A DNA stretch of 41,592 nt from Pseudomonadota bacterium (GTDB taxonomy: Bacteria > Pseudomonadota > Alphaproteobacteria > UBA828): positions 65,269 through 106,860 of the forward strand of contig JAQBTG010000006.1 in the NCBI GenBank assembly GCA_027624955.1, given 5' to 3'. A program made the translations under genes and the position numbers. Each line of letters opens with the position of its first letter. Positions within the stretch are counted from its first letter, which is position 1. The notes beneath the pieces are model-generated. The model saw only the letters and a program-made list of their open reading frames with translations. It made no database searches and was not told the DNA's origin. This document shows, one piece after another, positions 2,887-41,317 of the stretch.

Positions 2887-4077
2887 TCAGAACGTAATCG
2901 GCGGTACTTTCTCGGCGGTGTAGCGCGTGATCGGCGCATGTTTGCCGTTCTGCACTTCCATAATCTGTAAACCACGATAGAGGTTGATATGCAGGTCCGG
3001 CGAGAAGCTTGTCGCACCGATCAGCAAGTTTTCATTGCTGAATTTGTCGAGCTCCTGGCGGATCGCATCGGGATCGAGCGAGCCGGCCCGTTCCGCCGCC
3101 ATCGCCCAGGCCTCGATCAGGCTATAGCCGGTCAGCGAATGCGCAGTAATCGGCGCCGCGCCATGCATCGCCGTAAAGTCAGCGACATATTTATTAATCT
3201 TCGGGTCCGGATCGTTGCCGAACATGGAACCGTAGACGCCGAGATAGAATTCGCTCAAATTCGGCACCGCTTCCAGCCAAAACGCGCCGTCCATGGATTC
3301 GGAGGCGAGGATGGGCGTGTTGACGCCGGCCGCGCGGGCCTGCTTGATCAGCGCCGGGCCGTCGAATGTTGCGGCGCAGAGGAACACGAAGTCTGCGGTG
3401 TCGCTGGCCTTCATGCGGGTGACCTGGCCCTCGAAGGTTTTAACCTCGGCGAAGTTATAAACGTCCTCGCCGACGATCTCGCCGCCGAGCTCTTCCCAAC
3501 GAACTTTGAAATTGGCACAGAGCGATTTGAAATATTCGACCATCGAATCCATTTCGACATAGACCTTGCGCCAGCCTTTTTCCTTAAACGCCCATTCCGC
3601 GAGCGTGGCGCCCTGCGCCGGGGTGCCGAGCGCCATGGTATAGGCCAGCGGGCCGATGCCTTGGACGCCGAATTTCGGATCACCCGCACAAGACGAGAAC
3701 GTGACTTTGCCCATCGCCGAAGCCTGCAATGCCGCGGCCGCGCCGAAATCGAAATCGCAAGTCACGATGACCATTTCAGCGCCTTGCTCCAGCACTTCGA
3801 TGGCGGCATTTGTGCCTTGCGCCGGATCGGATTTGGTGTCGGCGGTGACGATGGAAAGCTGCCGGCCCAACACGCCGCCCTTGGCGTTGATATCGGCGAT
3901 GGCGAGCTGCGCACCCTTGAGCGGGCCGTCGTCATAGGGCTGAACGAAGCCACTGAGCGCGATCGCGGCGCCGATAACAATTGGGTCTTCCGCGCGGGCT
4001 TGGTCGGACGAGCCCGCCAACCCGGCAATGCCGAGCGCAAGCAGCCCGGCCATGGCCAAAGATGTGAGTCTCTTCAT
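2887..4077 (-). CDS. ABC transporter substrate-binding protein, Liv/HAAT type
   Basis: The 396-residue protein starts with a Sec signal peptide (MKRLTSLAMAGLLALGIAGL, cleavage probably after the AEDP-preceding Ala near residue 29). It continues with a type I periplasmic-binding fold typical of the LivJ/LivK/amide-binding family: VIGAAIALSGFVQPYDDGPLKG, then ADINAKGGVLGR, both diagnostic of this group. It should deliver ligand to LivHM. ATG at 4077 was chosen over an in-frame codon 23 positions upstream because GGGAGAA lies just before it and the signal peptide starts there. It is transcribed with livHM and lies downstream of imidase-like and amidase genes. The ligand cannot be read from the sequence; the neighbours favour an amide, ureide or cyclic imide. 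Confidence 0.88.
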   Translation of the reverse strand: MKRLTSLAMAGLLALGIAGLAGSSDQARAEDPIVIGAAIALSGFVQPYDDGPLKGAQLAIADINAKGGVLGRQLSIVTADTKSDPAQGTNAAIEVLEQGAEMVIVTCDFDFGAAAALQASAMGKVTFSSCAGDPKFGVQGIGPLAYTMALGTPAQGATLAEWAFKEKGWRKVYVEMDSMVEYFKSLCANFKVRWEELGGEIVGEDVYNFAEVKTFEGQVTRMKASDTADFVFLCAATFDGPALIKQARAAGVNTPILASESMDGAFWLEAVPNLSEFYLGVYGSMFGNDPDPKINKYVADFTAMHGAAPITAHSLTGYSLIEAWAMAAERAGSLDPDAIRQELDKFSNENLLIGATSFSPDLHINLYRGLQIMEVQNGKHAPITRYTAEKVPPITF

Positions 4078-35472: not shown

Positions 35473-36309
35473 ATGCCTCACCGACCCTTTCGCTGGTACA
35501 ATACCATTGGTCTTGTCGTCGGCCTTGTATTCGCGCTTTTCCCTATATTCTGGATGGTTTCGACCTCGTTCAAGCCGACCCATGAGTGGGCAGCGACGCC
35601 GGCGGTGTGGATTACCAGCAACGCGACCTGGGACAATTACGCTCCGCTCTTTTTCGATGTTAAAGGAATGTACATCGCCGGCAACGGCGCCTCGTGGGTG
35701 GCGATGATGCATTCATTTATCGTTTCAAGCGCGGCCACCTTCTTCTCACTCTTGATCGGCGGGATGGCGGCAATCGGATTTTCGCGCTACCGCGCCGGCG
35801 GCCACGCCTTGGCAATAGCCATTTTGTCGGTGCGCGGTATTCCGACAGTGGTCATCGCCATCCCGTTTCTGATTTTATTTGGCTGGCTCGGCCTGCGCGA
35901 CACCCATATTGGCTTAACTCTGGCCTATGTCGTTTTCACGGCGCCGTTTGCGTTTTGGATGTTGAAGAGTTTCATCGATGAAATTCCGGCGGAGATCGAA
36001 GAGGCTGCCATGATGGATGGCATGACGCGTTTGGAGGCGCATTTTCGCGTCACCCTGCCGCTGATCAGGGGCGGCGTGATCGCCACTGCGCTATTTATCT
36101 TCATATTGAACTGGAGCGAATTTCTGTTGGCTGCGGTGCTCACCGAAAAAACCGTGATCACTGTGCCGGTCAATATGAATTTATATGGCGGGGCGATCGG
36201 CGTGCAGGCGGCGCTAGCCACCGTCGCCGCCCTGCCGATGGTTATCATGGGGCTGATGATTCACAAACATTTGGCGCGTGGCTTCACGCTCGGAGCCATA
36301 AAACGCTGA
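35473..36309 (+). CDS. Orphan MalG/UgpE-type ABC transporter permease
   Basis: The 278-residue protein has six predicted membrane segments and the BPD_transp_1 EAA loop EEAAMMDGMTRLEAHFRVTLP. It is a close paralogue of the permease at 39253: both start with a GLVFALFPIFWMVSTSFK-like segment and end LTLGAIKR or its near twin. The present copy lacks a periplasmic stretch of about 40 residues found in the other. It stands alone, with no partner permease, binding protein or ATPase directly attached; the next gene is 309 bases downstream. The ribosome site is weak. It may substitute for the other permease to change specificity, or be left over from a duplicated operon. Confidence 0.85.
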   Translation: MPHRPFRWYNTIGLVVGLVFALFPIFWMVSTSFKPTHEWAATPAVWITSNATWDNYAPLFFDVKGMYIAGNGASWVAMMHSFIVSSAATFFSLLIGGMAAIGFSRYRAGGHALAIAILSVRGIPTVVIAIPFLILFGWLGLRDTHIGLTLAYVVFTAPFAFWMLKSFIDEIPAEIEEAAMMDGMTRLEAHFRVTLPLIRGGVIATALFIFILNWSEFLLAAVLTEKTVITVPVNMNLYGGAIGVQAALATVAALPMVIMGLMIHKHLARGFTLGAIKR

Positions 36310-36582: not shown

Positions 36583-36618
36583 GCGGCTCGGGCCGCCCAG
36601 CTTTAGGGAGCGATGAAC

Positions 36619-38226
36619 ATGTCACATACGGATGATAAGAAAGAACGTTTCAAAAAAGAGCTTTACCGTCTTTGGGGTATGCACTTTTCGGGCGATCACA
36701 AAGTTTCACGCCGCGATCTGATGAAAGGCATGATGGGCCTTGGCCTGAGCGCCACTGCCATCTCCATGATCATGCGCAAAGCGCCGTTCAGCGTGAAGCA
36801 GGCTTGGGCGGCAGAGGGCGGCACACCAGAAGACCGCGCCGTTAAAGCGGCAAAAGCGCTTTATGCCAACTCGCCGAAGAAGACCATCGCGATCATGCAT
36901 CCGTCGGGTTCAGGCGGCAACATGTCGCCGTTCACCGCCGAATGGAAAGCGCTGACCGGTTTTGACGTCGAGCTTATCGAAGTGCCGGTGACGCAGACTC
37001 ATCAAAAGGGCATGCAGGAAGCAGTCGCGCAGACTGGCCGGTATGACCTTTTGCTGCCCGCGCCGCTGAGCCTTCCTGACTTCGCCGAATCGGGCCTCGC
37101 GCACGATCTCACGGGGTGGGTCGATCAATACAATCCGGAGCTTTTCGAGGGTCCCAACAAGCTGGAATTCCCAGTTTCGGATTTCGGTCAGAAATACAAA
37201 GGCAAGATGTATGGCCTCTACTGCGATGGTGACTGGTGGCTGTTGAACTATCGTAAGGATGTTTTGGCTGCGGCCGGCAAATCGCCGAAGTCAGCACGTG
37301 TCGTCGTCGATACCTGGGAAGAGTATGACGCACTCGCTGCGGAGATGACCGATACGTCCAAAGATTTCTGGGGCGCGTTGGAATATCGCTCACCTTTCTG
37401 GAACAAATTCCATTGGATGATGCGCTTCCAGTCGAAAGGTAAGCTCTATTTCGACAAGGACATGAAATCCATGGCCGGCAGCCCGGAGAGCATCAAGACC
37501 GTTACGGACTTGGTGAACATCCAGAAATATATGCCGCAGGAGCAGTTCAGTTACGGCTTCACGGAAAACTATGCGCAATATTATGCGGCCGGCCGCGGCT
37601 TCTTCGAGTTCGGTTGGCCGTCCCTGTGGCGTTATAGCCATGACGCGGCTGGCGCGCAGTCGATCATCGCGGGCAAAGACGCCAATGGCCCGACGCAGAC
37701 CGGCATCTCTTTGGTGCCGGGCGATATGGTTAATGGCGAATTGATCCGTGCTGATGTCATGCCGTTTGCATGGGATTTCGTGGTCAACCAGCATTCGCAA
37801 ATTCCAGAAGCGTCCTATCTCTATGCGCAATGGCTCACGGGCCCGACCATGTCGATGCGTTCGATTCCGAACGAAGGCGGGTATTTCGATCCGTGGCGCA
37901 ACAATCACTTTCTCACACCGTCACCGGAATTCCTTGCCGCCTATCCCGGCGATTTCCTGGGAACGGCCTACGAGTCAGTGGTCAACGTTGTGCCGGAGAT
38001 CATCCTGCGCGGTGGTTCGGAATATCACGATGCCTTGGATCGTAATCTGCAGGCCGCGTACAACAAGCAAAAGACCCCCGCAGAGGCAATGGCCGATACC
38101 GCGAAAGAGCAAGACCGTATCACGCGCCGTCTGGGCAAAGACACGCAGGTCGAAGCGTGGCGCGCCCTTGCCGCCATGTATCCTTCGGCGCTTCAGAAGG
38201 CGTCCGGCGCGGACAAGTGGAGCTAA
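36619..38226 (+). CDS. ABC transporter substrate-binding protein with Tat signal (sugar/polyol type)
   Basis: The 535-residue protein has an N-terminal twin-arginine signal: SRRDLMKGMMGLGL then a hydrophobic stretch and AWAA as probable cleavage site (around residue 68 counted from this start). The mature part is a large type II extracellular binding protein (bacterial solute-binding family 1), with PSGSGGNMSPFTAEWKALTG and YGLYCDGDWWLLNYRKDVL recognisable as its ligand-domain segments. I chose ATG at 36619: AGGGAG is eight bases before it, but only two bases before the ATG at 36613. Tat export means it folds in the cytoplasm, which is uncommon for this family. It heads the operon with two permeases and two ATPases. 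Confidence 0.86.
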   Translation: MSHTDDKKERFKKELYRLWGMHFSGDHKVSRRDLMKGMMGLGLSATAISMIMRKAPFSVKQAWAAEGGTPEDRAVKAAKALYANSPKKTIAIMHPSGSGGNMSPFTAEWKALTGFDVELIEVPVTQTHQKGMQEAVAQTGRYDLLLPAPLSLPDFAESGLAHDLTGWVDQYNPELFEGPNKLEFPVSDFGQKYKGKMYGLYCDGDWWLLNYRKDVLAAAGKSPKSARVVVDTWEEYDALAAEMTDTSKDFWGALEYRSPFWNKFHWMMRFQSKGKLYFDKDMKSMAGSPESIKTVTDLVNIQKYMPQEQFSYGFTENYAQYYAAGRGFFEFGWPSLWRYSHDAAGAQSIIAGKDANGPTQTGISLVPGDMVNGELIRADVMPFAWDFVVNQHSQIPEASYLYAQWLTGPTMSMRSIPNEGGYFDPWRNNHFLTPSPEFLAAYPGDFLGTAYESVVNVVPEIILRGGSEYHDALDRNLQAAYNKQKTPAEAMADTAKEQDRITRRLGKDTQVEAWRALAAMYPSALQKASGADKWS

Positions 38227-38275
38227 TAGTTTGACCACGCAACAATTCGTCAACGACAACACATAAGAAAAGACC

Positions 38276-39250
38276 GTGGTTGCAAATACTTCTAATGGCG
38301 GGGTTTCCTCTGCACGTTCGAGGAAACCCCGCCGATTTGACCCGAATGACAAAAGGTTCATTCCCGGCCTTCTGATCACGCCCGTGCAGATATTGCTGTG
38401 CGTGATGCTGATTTTCCCGTTTGTTCTGGAATTCGTCATCAGCATGACAGAATGGCAGCCGATTTACGGTGATTTCTGGGATTCCTTCGCCAGCGTTTTC
38501 ACGCAGAAAATCAATCAAGGTATTGGCTACAATTACCTGATAACCGACGAGCCTCGCTATTTGCAGGCGCTCGGTCGCACCGTGATCATTTCAGTGATCA
38601 GTCTCTGTTTGGAATTCTTGATCGGCCTCGCGTTGGCCACTCTATTCCTAAAGAAATTTTGGGGTAAGCGTCTGTGGTTTACGGCGCTGCTCTCGCCCAT
38701 GATGATAATGCCGGTTGTGGTGGGCTACACCTGGTTCATGCTGTTTCAGTATAACGGACCGATAAACCAATTCTTTTCCTGGATCGCGTTTAGCGAAGTC
38801 AACCTGACATGGCTTAACGACGGGACCTTGGCCTTTATCGCCGTGATCACGACCGAAGTGTGGCATTGGACGCCGCTCTTCTTCTTGATCATGCTGTCTG
38901 GCCTTAATGCGGTGCCTGAAAATCCAATTCGCGCTGCGACCGTGTTGGGCGCCAGCAACTTCAAAATATTCTGGACGATTATCCTGCCGAATATGAAGGC
39001 CGTGATTATCATTGCCTTCGTGATTCGCGGCATGGAAGTGGTCAAGCTGTTCGACGAAATTTACATTTTGACACGCGGCGGCCCAGGCACGGCGACCGAA
39101 ACCATCAGCCTTTATCTCTATAAATTGGCGTTCGAGGATTTCCGGCTGGCTTATGCGGGCTCTGCCGCATTCATCGTCCTGATTATCACCGTTGTTCTGA
39201 TAAACATGATGCTGAAGCCGATCCGCTATCAGCTGGTTGAGGGGCGCTGA
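38276..39250 (+). CDS. MalF/UgpA-type ABC transporter permease
   Basis: The 324-residue protein has a cytoplasmic N-terminus of about 30 residues, six to seven membrane segments beginning FIPGLLITPVQILLCVMLIF, and the EAA loop near ENPIRAATVLGASNFKIFWTIILP. It pairs with the permease at 39253. The only plausible start is the GTG at 38276, with a poor ribosome site; the next in-frame start lies inside the first membrane helix. Just 21 bases into the gene is a perfect 14-bp hairpin (38297-38333), so the start region is likely structured. Low translation relative to the binding protein would suit the stoichiometry. Confidence 0.86.
   Translation: MVANTSNGGVSSARSRKPRRFDPNDKRFIPGLLITPVQILLCVMLIFPFVLEFVISMTEWQPIYGDFWDSFASVFTQKINQGIGYNYLITDEPRYLQALGRTVIISVISLCLEFLIGLALATLFLKKFWGKRLWFTALLSPMMIMPVVVGYTWFMLFQYNGPINQFFSWIAFSEVNLTWLNDGTLAFIAVITTEVWHWTPLFFLIMLSGLNAVPENPIRAATVLGASNFKIFWTIILPNMKAVIIIAFVIRGMEVVKLFDEIYILTRGGPGTATETISLYLYKLAFEDFRLAYAGSAAFIVLIITVVLINMMLKPIRYQLVEGR
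38297..38333 (+). repeat. Perfect 14-bp hairpin inside the 5' coding end of the MalF-type permease
   Basis: Arms GGCGGGGTTTCCTC (38297-38310) and GAGGAAACCCCGCC (38320-38333) with a 9-base loop TGCACGTTC. A G.U pair can extend it by one. No T tract follows, so it is not a standard intrinsic terminator. It starts 21 bases after the GTG, where it could stall or protect against ribosomes, exonucleases or RNA polymerase, and so separate expression of the binding protein from the membrane subunits. Confidence 0.75.
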
Positions 39251-39252
39251 TC

Positions 39253-40203
39253 ATGCCGGAAAGCAAATTTACGCCATTCAATTTCCTCGGCCTTGTCGCC
39301 GGACTGCTGTTTGCGGTGTTTCCAATCTTTTGGATGGTTTCGACGTCCTTTAAGGTACGCAGCGAGTGGGTTACGAGCCCGCCAACCTGGATTTCTGCCA
39401 AGCCCACAGTGGATAATTATCTTACCGTCTTGGCGCCGCACATATTGTTGGAACGGCGCGGCGGCACGCAGCAGTACACCGAAGCCGGCGAGTTAATCAT
39501 AAACGAAAATAAGAACGAAGAAGCAGCGGCTGGCGGCGCTATCGCAGACTTTTTGAACCGCTCTGCCTGGCCCGGCATCAAGGGCACGGTCATCATCTCG
39601 GTATCAGCGACTATATTGTCCATTGTGGTCGGCCTTATGGCCGCAATCAGCATTTCGCGATATCGATTCGGCGGGAATTTCACGCCATTCTTCATATTGT
39701 CGGGACGAATGTTTCCGCCTATTGCGATCGCGATTCCGTTCGTCATCATGTTTGGACCCAAAGTGTTCGACATGACCGACACCTATTTCGGCTTGATCGT
39801 GGCCTATGCGGCGGTAACCGTGCCGTTCTCTACTTGGATGTTAAAGAGTTTTGTCGATGACTTGCCTCACGAGATCGAGGAGGCGTCGATGATGGATGGA
39901 TATTCGCGTTGGGGAGCCCATCTCAAGGTGACGGTACCGCTCATAAAAGGCGGAATCATCGCAACCGCTCTGTTTATTCTTATCTTGAATTGGAGCGAAT
40001 TCCTATTTGCCTTAATCTTGACCTATACCAATGTGCAGACAATCCCGGTCCAGCTCGCTAAGTATTTTTCGGCGACCGAGGGCACGCTCTATGGCGTACA
40101 GGCGGCGTTGGCCATGGTCTCCATAGTTCCGTTGGTGATTATCGGCTTCTTCATTCAAAAACATCTCGTGCGCGGGCTTACGCTCGGCGCCATCAAGCGG
40201 TGA
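39253..40203 (+). CDS. MalG/UgpE-type ABC transporter permease
   Basis: The 316-residue protein has six membrane segments, the EAA loop EEASMMDGYSRWGAHLKVTVP and the C-terminal HLVRGLTLGAIKR. Between the first and second helices it carries a hydrophilic periplasmic stretch (about residues 58-110, including ERRGGTQQYTEAGE) which is absent from the paralogue at 35473. GAGGGGCG overlaps the end of the previous gene, and only two bases lie between them. It forms the channel with the MalF-type subunit. Confidence 0.9.
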   Translation: MPESKFTPFNFLGLVAGLLFAVFPIFWMVSTSFKVRSEWVTSPPTWISAKPTVDNYLTVLAPHILLERRGGTQQYTEAGELIINENKNEEAAAGGAIADFLNRSAWPGIKGTVIISVSATILSIVVGLMAAISISRYRFGGNFTPFFILSGRMFPPIAIAIPFVIMFGPKVFDMTDTYFGLIVAYAAVTVPFSTWMLKSFVDDLPHEIEEASMMDGYSRWGAHLKVTVPLIKGGIIATALFILILNWSEFLFALILTYTNVQTIPVQLAKYFSATEGTLYGVQAALAMVSIVPLVIIGFFIQKHLVRGLTLGAIKR

Positions 40204-40210
40204 TCAGTTA

Positions 40211-41317
40211 ATGGCTAACATCAAGCTGGAACTGGTTAATCTGCGTAAGGAATTCGGCGCTCTCAACGCTGTCGATAATGTCTCGATCGCTATCGAAGAA
40301 AGCGAAACAATGGCCCTGTTGGGCCCGTCCGGCTGCGGAAAAACGACGATCCTCAACATGATCGTCGGGCTGGAAAAGCCAAGCAGCGGCGATATTCTGA
40401 TCGATGGAAAATCAGTGCTGAATGTGCCGCCGGGAAAGCGCAGCGTCGGGCTGGTGTTTCAGGACTACGCCGTTTTTACTCATATGACCGTGCGCCAAAA
40501 TTTGGCCTACGGCCTAAAGATTCGCAAAATGAAGCAGCCGGAGATCGACAGAGAGATCTCCAAGGTGTCAGAATTTTTGTCGCTCAGCCATCAACTTGAA
40601 CGCAAACCTTCGGAGTTGGGCGCGAGCGAATTGCAACGCGTTGCGATTGGCCGGACGCTGGTGACGAATCCCGAGATTCTCCTGCTCGATGAACCTTTGA
40701 GCAATCTGGAGGCTTCGATGCGCAACCAGATGCGGCGCGAATTGCGGCGTATTCAGGGCGAAACTGGGCAGACCATCATTTATGTTACCCATGATCAGAT
40801 CGAAGCGTTGTCGCTGGCGCACCAAATCGCGGTGATGAATTTCGGTGTTTTGCAACAATATGACACTGCTCATAACGTCTACGAATATCCCGCCAATCGT
40901 TTTGTCGGCAGTTTTCTTGGCAATCCACCGATGAATTTCATCAAAGGAAAACTGGCGGATGAGAGCGGTCAACGCGTCGTGTCTTCGGGAAAATCGACAA
41001 TGCCATTGCCAGCGGGGATCGTTGGCGTGGATGTGGCGATTGGTACGGATGTCGTCGTTGGCGTGCGGCCGGAAACATTGAACATTGCCCCAGTCGGTAA
41101 TCCAGGCAGCTTTACCGCAGAGGTGCTCGCGGTGGAGCCGCAGGGACCTGAGACCGTGGTGACTGCGTCTTTCGGGGAAGCGTCTTTTAAAGTCATTGTC
41201 CCTGCTGGAACGGAAGCTGAGACAGGTGGTGCTATTACTCTCGCGCCACAAAACGATCTTGTGGCTCTGTTCGACGCCGAGACCGGCGTTCGCTTGATGA
41301 ATAGCGGGGGCGCCTGA
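40211..41317 (+). CDS. ABC transporter ATPase 1 (MalK/UgpC-like) with altered signature motif
   Basis: The 368-residue protein has Walker A GPSGCGKT (38-45), Q-loop Gln in LVFQDYAVF, Walker B ILLLDEP (Asp160, Glu161), D-loop SNLEA, H-loop His in VTHDQIEA and a C-terminal TOBE/MalK-type regulatory domain. The signature that normally reads LSGGQ is LGASE (136-140), so this subunit probably cannot provide a standard signature to the partner's ATP site. The ribosome site is weak. The stop shares a base with the ATG of a second ATPase (TGATG), so the importer likely uses an ATPase heterodimer, as in GlpST-type glycerol importers. Confidence 0.88.
   Translation: MANIKLELVNLRKEFGALNAVDNVSIAIEESETMALLGPSGCGKTTILNMIVGLEKPSSGDILIDGKSVLNVPPGKRSVGLVFQDYAVFTHMTVRQNLAYGLKIRKMKQPEIDREISKVSEFLSLSHQLERKPSELGASELQRVAIGRTLVTNPEILLLDEPLSNLEASMRNQMRRELRRIQGETGQTIIYVTHDQIEALSLAHQIAVMNFGVLQQYDTAHNVYEYPANRFVGSFLGNPPMNFIKGKLADESGQRVVSSGKSTMPLPAGIVGVDVAIGTDVVVGVRPETLNIAPVGNPGSFTAEVLAVEPQGPETVVTASFGEASFKVIVPAGTEAETGGAITLAPQNDLVALFDAETGVRLMNSGGA

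Follow-up and report, generated by a model that had tools for sequence, protein, structure and literature searches.

The closest described systems are the protective mRNA hairpins of E. coli, where a hairpin directly precedes the end in 26 of 34 upstream-stabilised pairs; 17 of these 26 are located within the coding sequence of the downstream gene, at a mean of 107 +/- 56 nt into it (Dar and Sorek, 2018; PMC5927463). As described in the available text of that study, they are strong, lack a U tract and follow a gene needed in excess (binding-protein genes included), properties shared by the hairpin analyzed here; they are also often located in the downstream coding sequence, conserved in relatives and marked by raised wobble conservation. 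The same text places a hairpin at the malE-malF boundary, which is the same binding-protein/MalF-type permease junction with the same expected excess of binding protein, but the E. coli version is intergenic, whereas ours is within the permease coding sequence and has a single-copy arm word. In cellulolytic Clostridia, internal terminators of ABC importer operons likewise consist of a stem-loop after the binding-protein gene and set stoichiometry; as presented in the available part of that report (PMC9045158), these are intergenic, carry a U-rich tract and act by transcription termination, whereas the hairpin here is coding and has no T tract.

This kind of hairpin is, then, already known from E. 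coli, where 3' ends and half-lives were measured (PMC5927463, available text); the one described here was characterized by sequence comparison. Three features of the E. coli type are found at our locus: a strong fold at the gene boundary, no uridine tract and conservation in relatives. Its end at +58 of the permease gene is also within one standard deviation of the mean E. coli depth given in the text of PMC5927463. Unlike the E. coli set as that text presents it, the hairpin here starts between +21 and +26 across three genera, its arms have been replaced in a compensatory manner and, in a sister genus, its counterpart is intergenic. Sequence comparison adds in-gene compensatory change, a spacing from the start codon that hardly varies and a placement that is coding or intergenic in sister genera. 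Our searches, which covered open-licence papers, turned up no account of a hairpin of this type evolving by compensatory change within a permease gene, nor of one being coding in some genera and intergenic in a sister genus, and the main text of PMC5927463 contains no words beginning "covari" or "compensatory".

The stretch of DNA analyzed (the window) is 41,592 nucleotides long and carries the following features around the hairpin, where g1 denotes the genus of the window:

36613..38226, + strand: extracellular solute-binding protein gene (537 aa, PF01547), upstream neighbour of the permease gene
38276..39250, + strand: MalF-type permease gene (324 aa, PF00528, GTG start), with the hairpin in codons 8-20
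38297..38310, + strand: hairpin left arm, 14 nt, GGCGGGGTTTCCTC, assigned by exact pairing and fold
38311..38319, + strand: hairpin loop, 9 nt, variable at 7 of 9 positions among four g1 genomes
38320..38333, + strand: hairpin right arm, 14 nt, GAGGAAACCCCGCC, assigned by pairing and fold, a putative block to 3'-5' decay
39253..40203, + strand: MalG-type permease gene; the boundary between it and the MalF-type gene served as a control and has no strong hairpin (best 45-nt fold -13.0)
40211..41317, + strand: MalK/UgpC-type ATPase gene of the same operon

The original prediction described a perfect 14-bp stem with a 9-base loop, starting 21 bases after the GTG, encoding part of the permease N terminus and followed by no T tract, and the sequence bore this description out. 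The two arms (38297-38310 and 38320-38333) pair at 14/14 positions with 100% complementarity and are separated by 9 nt. The first Watson-Crick pair is 21 nt past the G of the GTG at 38276 (position +22), and the stem ends at +58. The segment corresponds to codons 8-20 and encodes GGVSSARSRKPR; GATTTGACCC is directly 3' of the stem, with three T in the next 8 nt and no T tract. The hairpin proper occupies 38297-38333, and the span first assigned to it, 38276-38333, also takes in the start codon. Folded alone, it has an energy of -29.7 kcal/mol (z -7.0), which was equalled by none of 200 shuffles. No other perfect stem of at least 11 bp (loop 3-12) is present in the 41.6-kb window, and the next best is 10 bp. 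First-order Markov sequences of the same length (n = 40) contained on average 0.025 stems of at least 12 bp, and none of the 40 had one of at least 13 bp. In the host genome (84 contigs, 98% complete, 3.58 Mb), the arm word GAGGAAACCCCG has no exact site beyond the two arms, and its one-mismatch sites are scattered single words. Rfam gave no match in the window at the gathering score.

The binding-protein stop codon and the permease start are separated by a 49-nt gap without a strong hairpin of its own. A Shine-Dalgarno-like AGGGAG precedes the binding-protein start; a simple scan of four g1 genomes found no Shine-Dalgarno match at the permease start. We considered whether the true permease start could be located further downstream, which would make the hairpin intergenic, and rejected this for the window because no in-frame ATG, GTG or TTG separates 38276 from the TPVQ motif in the first membrane segment. 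The N-terminal stretch of the permease is free of indels in the four g1 genomes, with the reading frame kept, and third positions account for 14 of 18 variable sites after the stem and 159 of 212 in the rest of the gene. For the orthologs, the start codons used are those that align with the family; in-frame start candidates do occur within the hairpin in two genomes (G001 and G002) and in genus g6, and within the intergenic hairpin of one genome of the sister genus g2 (G006). A lone MalG-type permease gene, additional to the one in the operon, is located at 35473-36309, approximately 300 nt upstream of the binding-protein gene.

Of 21 genomes sampled from the family, 13 encode the permease at E <= 1e-90, and the junction is fully readable in 11. 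Nine of these 11 orthologs, from genera g1, g5 and g6, have the hairpin inside the gene. Their first paired base is at +21 to +26, a range set by the counting of outer G-U pairs: +22 in g1 (Watson-Crick) and +23 in g5, while in g6 two genomes have it at +25 and a third at +22 with G-U pairs or +26 without them. Two contigs (G005 and G015) start inside the hairpin, and the right arm and part of the matching left arm are visible in both. The two genomes of the sister genus g2 (G006 and G011) have no in-gene hairpin and instead carry intergenic stems of -34.7 and -34.5 kcal/mol, which end 35-37 nt upstream of the assigned permease start codon. Two loci come from assemblies titled "Gammaproteobacteria bacterium" (L046) and "Rhizobium sp. 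Q54" (L047); these titles do not fit the family placement, and the assemblies are possibly mislabelled.

To assess the constraint on pairing, each gene's own codons were reshuffled 1000 times without altering the encoded protein. The observed fold was reached by 0/1000 shuffles in seven of the nine genes (window included), by 5/1000 in G003 and by 4/1000 in G002. The same stretch of the two g2 genes served as a negative control, and there 773/1000 and 391/1000 shuffles did as well. Comparison of g1 with g6 stems showed that 5-8 of 13 pairs had changed on both sides with pairing kept. These between-genus counts are structural and not strictly column-homologous, with the left-arm register shifted by one codon between g1 and g6; the MAFFT DNA alignment broke the stem register and was left unused, and pairs were counted by script in the structural register. 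Within g1, one pair changes from T-A to C-G, and G003 has a C-A mismatch; within g6 (four genomes), one pair is T-A, T-G or C-G. Third positions vary at 2 of 9 sites in the arms of the four g1 genomes versus 159 of 283 elsewhere in the gene. Comparison of wobble pairs on the two strands gave 6 G-T pairs versus 3 A-C mismatches, which is no clear excess and, by itself, does not prove the RNA strand.

The original prediction had proposed compensatory changes in the arms as a check and had named lack of conserved pairing in close relatives, together with equal transcript levels on both sides, as the outcome that would speak against it. Compensatory changes were found both across and within genera: each stem's own arms pair at 11-13 of 13 positions, and arms swapped between g1 and g6 pair at 6-9 of 13. 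Pairing is kept in the relatives. As judged from these comparisons, the hairpin is under selection as a paired structure and is kept by base pairing across genera.

A scan of contigs for related operons gave 51 loci, of which 44 were usable, and these together with the window locus (L009) made 45 operons. Loci were left out because the contig starts in the hairpin (L040 and L044), because the upstream sequence is short (L061, L065 and L081) or because the matches are far weaker (L086 and L087). The upstream genes of the 45 operons were taken as binding proteins from their length and C-terminal likeness. Past the stop codon of the binding-protein gene, the best 45-nt fold averaged -28.1 kcal/mol versus -15.7 at the F-G junction and was the stronger of the two in 43/45 operons; the operons are related by descent, and Wilcoxon values for these comparisons are not independent-sample probabilities. 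The binding-protein/permease junction was also stronger than the gene body (mean -18.4) in 40/45 operons, with the gene body better in 5/45. In the 44 operons with a readable G-K junction, it averaged -28.2 versus -19.6 and was stronger in 36/44, with G-K better in 8/44. The strongest fold starts at most 60 nt from the binding-protein stop in 28 of 34 distant operons, a few of which may have it past the permease start.

Seven candidate in-gene hairpins in the distant relatives were assessed by codon shuffling, with start codons of our choosing, and two stood out: L078 (3/800), the most convincing, and L055 (9/800). In L049, L062, L066, L067 and L072, the in-gene folds were not exceptional, with 55-205 of 800 codon shuffles as good. 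In the L078 hairpin, from a Desulfovibrio sp. UBA6079 bin, 14 bp pair without a mismatch around a 6-nt loop at approximately 3491-3524, within the permease coding sequence. Its location in the gene is apparently an independent case. A search for relatives of L049 at E <= 1e-115 in 394 genomes of its family, with at most six candidates scored per listed genome, returned only L049 itself.

The host genome was surveyed in 25 stretches, and the scan took in 14 junctions that precede ABC transporter genes; the remaining stretches had no same-strand upstream gene within them or were left out (for example, L147-L149). A strong intergenic hairpin (z -4 or below) follows 8 of 10 other Pfam-confirmed binding-protein genes. 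The binding-protein genes at L127 (z -2.5) and L146 (z -2.2) have short gaps and no strong hairpin. Two proteins with sub-threshold matches to Tat signals also have a hairpin, at z -7.3 in L143 and, more weakly, at z -3.0 in L141. Neither of the two non-binding-protein junctions was strong at the z -4 cut-off (L132, methyltransferase, z -3.0 and -22.4 kcal/mol; L134, porin, z -1.5). The surveyed loci, chosen for their transporter or binding-protein genes, total 185,251 bases and contain two perfect stems of at least 12 bp, at junctions L128 and L143. Strong intergenic hairpins were recorded at L125, L126, L128, L131, L133, L135, L137, L143 and L144, some with T-rich tails and others with none. 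At least five T occur in the next 10 nt at 5 of 10 intergenic hairpins after genes for binding proteins or similar exported proteins, so part of this intergenic class may terminate transcription. Two sub-types of post-binding-protein hairpin may coexist: T-tailed ones, which are possible leaky terminators, and tail-less ones.

We interpret the element as the usual post-binding-protein hairpin, placed within codons 1-20 of the permease gene, where it probably blocks 3'-to-5' decay. A strong stem without a T tract after a gene needed in excess is the decay-block pattern of E. coli, and decay blocking is therefore proposed here. The original prediction had offered attenuation or mRNA-end protection moved into the coding region, possibly with folding governed by ribosome occupancy. 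The move into the coding region is well supported by the pairing, the codon constraint, the intergenic version in the sister genus and the distinct junction; mRNA-end protection fits better than attenuation because there is no T tract after the stem. Its premise that such hairpins normally lie between genes was right only in part: in E. coli, 17/26 are in the downstream coding sequence (PMC5927463, available text).

An alternative is that the hairpin sets permease output at the level of translation and not of decay, either by lying just in front of the initiating ribosome and slowing the first elongation steps or by aiding selection of the weak GTG start. This would suit the near-constant distance from the start codon in 9/9 in-gene hairpins, the lack of a Shine-Dalgarno match at the permease start (simple scan, four g1 genomes) and a weak second stem over the start codon in the same four genomes. 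However, the g2 hairpin is 35-37 nt upstream of the assigned start, where such a mechanism would fail, and the strongest folds within 60 nt of the binding-protein stop in 28/34 distant operons are mostly at unsuited positions; we consider an effect on translation unlikely. We find it still more doubtful that the hairpin lowers transcription into the permease genes as a partial terminator or pause site, intrinsic or Rho-assisted. The first 8 nt past the stem hold three T in the window and three to four in the other coding-hairpin orthologs, and none has a T tract, although a short TTT or TTTT follows soon past the stem in most of these orthologs, half of the intergenic hairpins of the genome (5/10) have at least five T in the next 10 nt, and the position after a binding-protein gene is the same as that of the internal terminators in Clostridia ABC operons (PMC9045158, available text). 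Our terminator scan covered loops of 3-8 nt, and the hairpin, with its 9-nt loop outside this range, was not among its results. As a candidate, an intrinsic terminator or attenuator was rejected for want of a T-rich tract, with three T in the 8 nt past the stem.

A role at the DNA level, as an operator, cruciform or mobile repeat, seems very unlikely. A perfect palindrome would serve equally well there, and the wobble counts (6 G-T versus 3 A-C) are not decisive; however, an exact copy of the arm word is found nowhere else in the genome, the arms differ in sequence from genus to genus although a site bound by a protein would be conserved, and the place relative to the gene varies between genera while the junction is constant. 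A REP-like dispersed repeat or mobile palindrome was not supported, as the exact arm word occurs only in the arms of this site. GGC and GGG are naturally complementary to CCC and CGC codons, and Gly-rich and Arg/Pro-rich codons might pair by chance or through codon bias in a GC-rich genome, but an origin of this kind is hardly credible given that 0/1000 codon shuffles matched the fold, that no 13-bp stem arose in 40 Markov windows and that pairing is conserved. As far as these nulls reach, the Markov, codon-shuffle and conservation results refute it.

Under the decay-block interpretation, RNase E would cut the transcript in its permease part, where translation would be poor, and 3'-5' exonucleases (PNPase and others) would degrade back to the hairpin and halt at about +60 of the permease gene, giving an expected RNA 3' end a few nucleotides beyond 38333. 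Genes for PNPase, an RNase E/G-family enzyme and tmRNA are encoded in the genome. A stable binding-protein mRNA would be left over and would outlive the permease mRNA, which would put the binding protein in excess over the permease, as in malEFG. The footprint of an initiating ribosome would not reach +22. The stem would thus start just past the mRNA held by that ribosome, so that the start would stay usable and the stem would be melted in passing only.

A counterpoint is that translating ribosomes would repeatedly melt an in-gene hairpin. This may be turned into a regulatory proposal, in which the hairpin lies at a fixed distance past the initiating ribosome and permease translation gates the protection: entering ribosomes would melt the stem and let decay enter the binding-protein mRNA, and idle starts would keep it protected. 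We offer this tentatively and think it rather unlikely. If it were true, a translation-sensing 3' end would determine the ratio of binding protein to permease; mRNA trimmed in this way would have a start without a stop codon, and tmRNA rescue may be part of the cost.

The gap and the permease start can also form a weak second stem:

38233..38239, + strand: left arm of the weak second stem, just past the binding-protein stop codon, pairing with the permease start region
38275..38281, + strand: right arm of the same stem, overlapping the GTG start codon

This start-covering stem was found in all four g1 genomes. Relative to shuffles, its z-scores were 0.11 in the window, 0.03 in G003, -0.8 in G009 and -1.9 to -2.8 in five others, a set that leaves out G012, G006 and G011. 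In the g6 version (L041, L042 and L043), the stop-codon region pairs with a stretch just before the start, at z -2.3 to -2.8. In the window and G003 the stem is no better than shuffles, and it is suggestive only; it could link the start of permease translation with the completion of binding-protein translation.

These data indicate that hairpins after binding-protein genes are common, both in the genome of this organism and in the related operons from other Alphaproteobacteria and from Desulfovibrio-type bacteria. They also indicate that, at this junction, selection on base pairing shapes the choice of amino acids and codons within a coding sequence. The same operon, with the hairpin inside the next gene in some genera and outside it in a sister genus, would provide a natural comparison for the role of the coding location.
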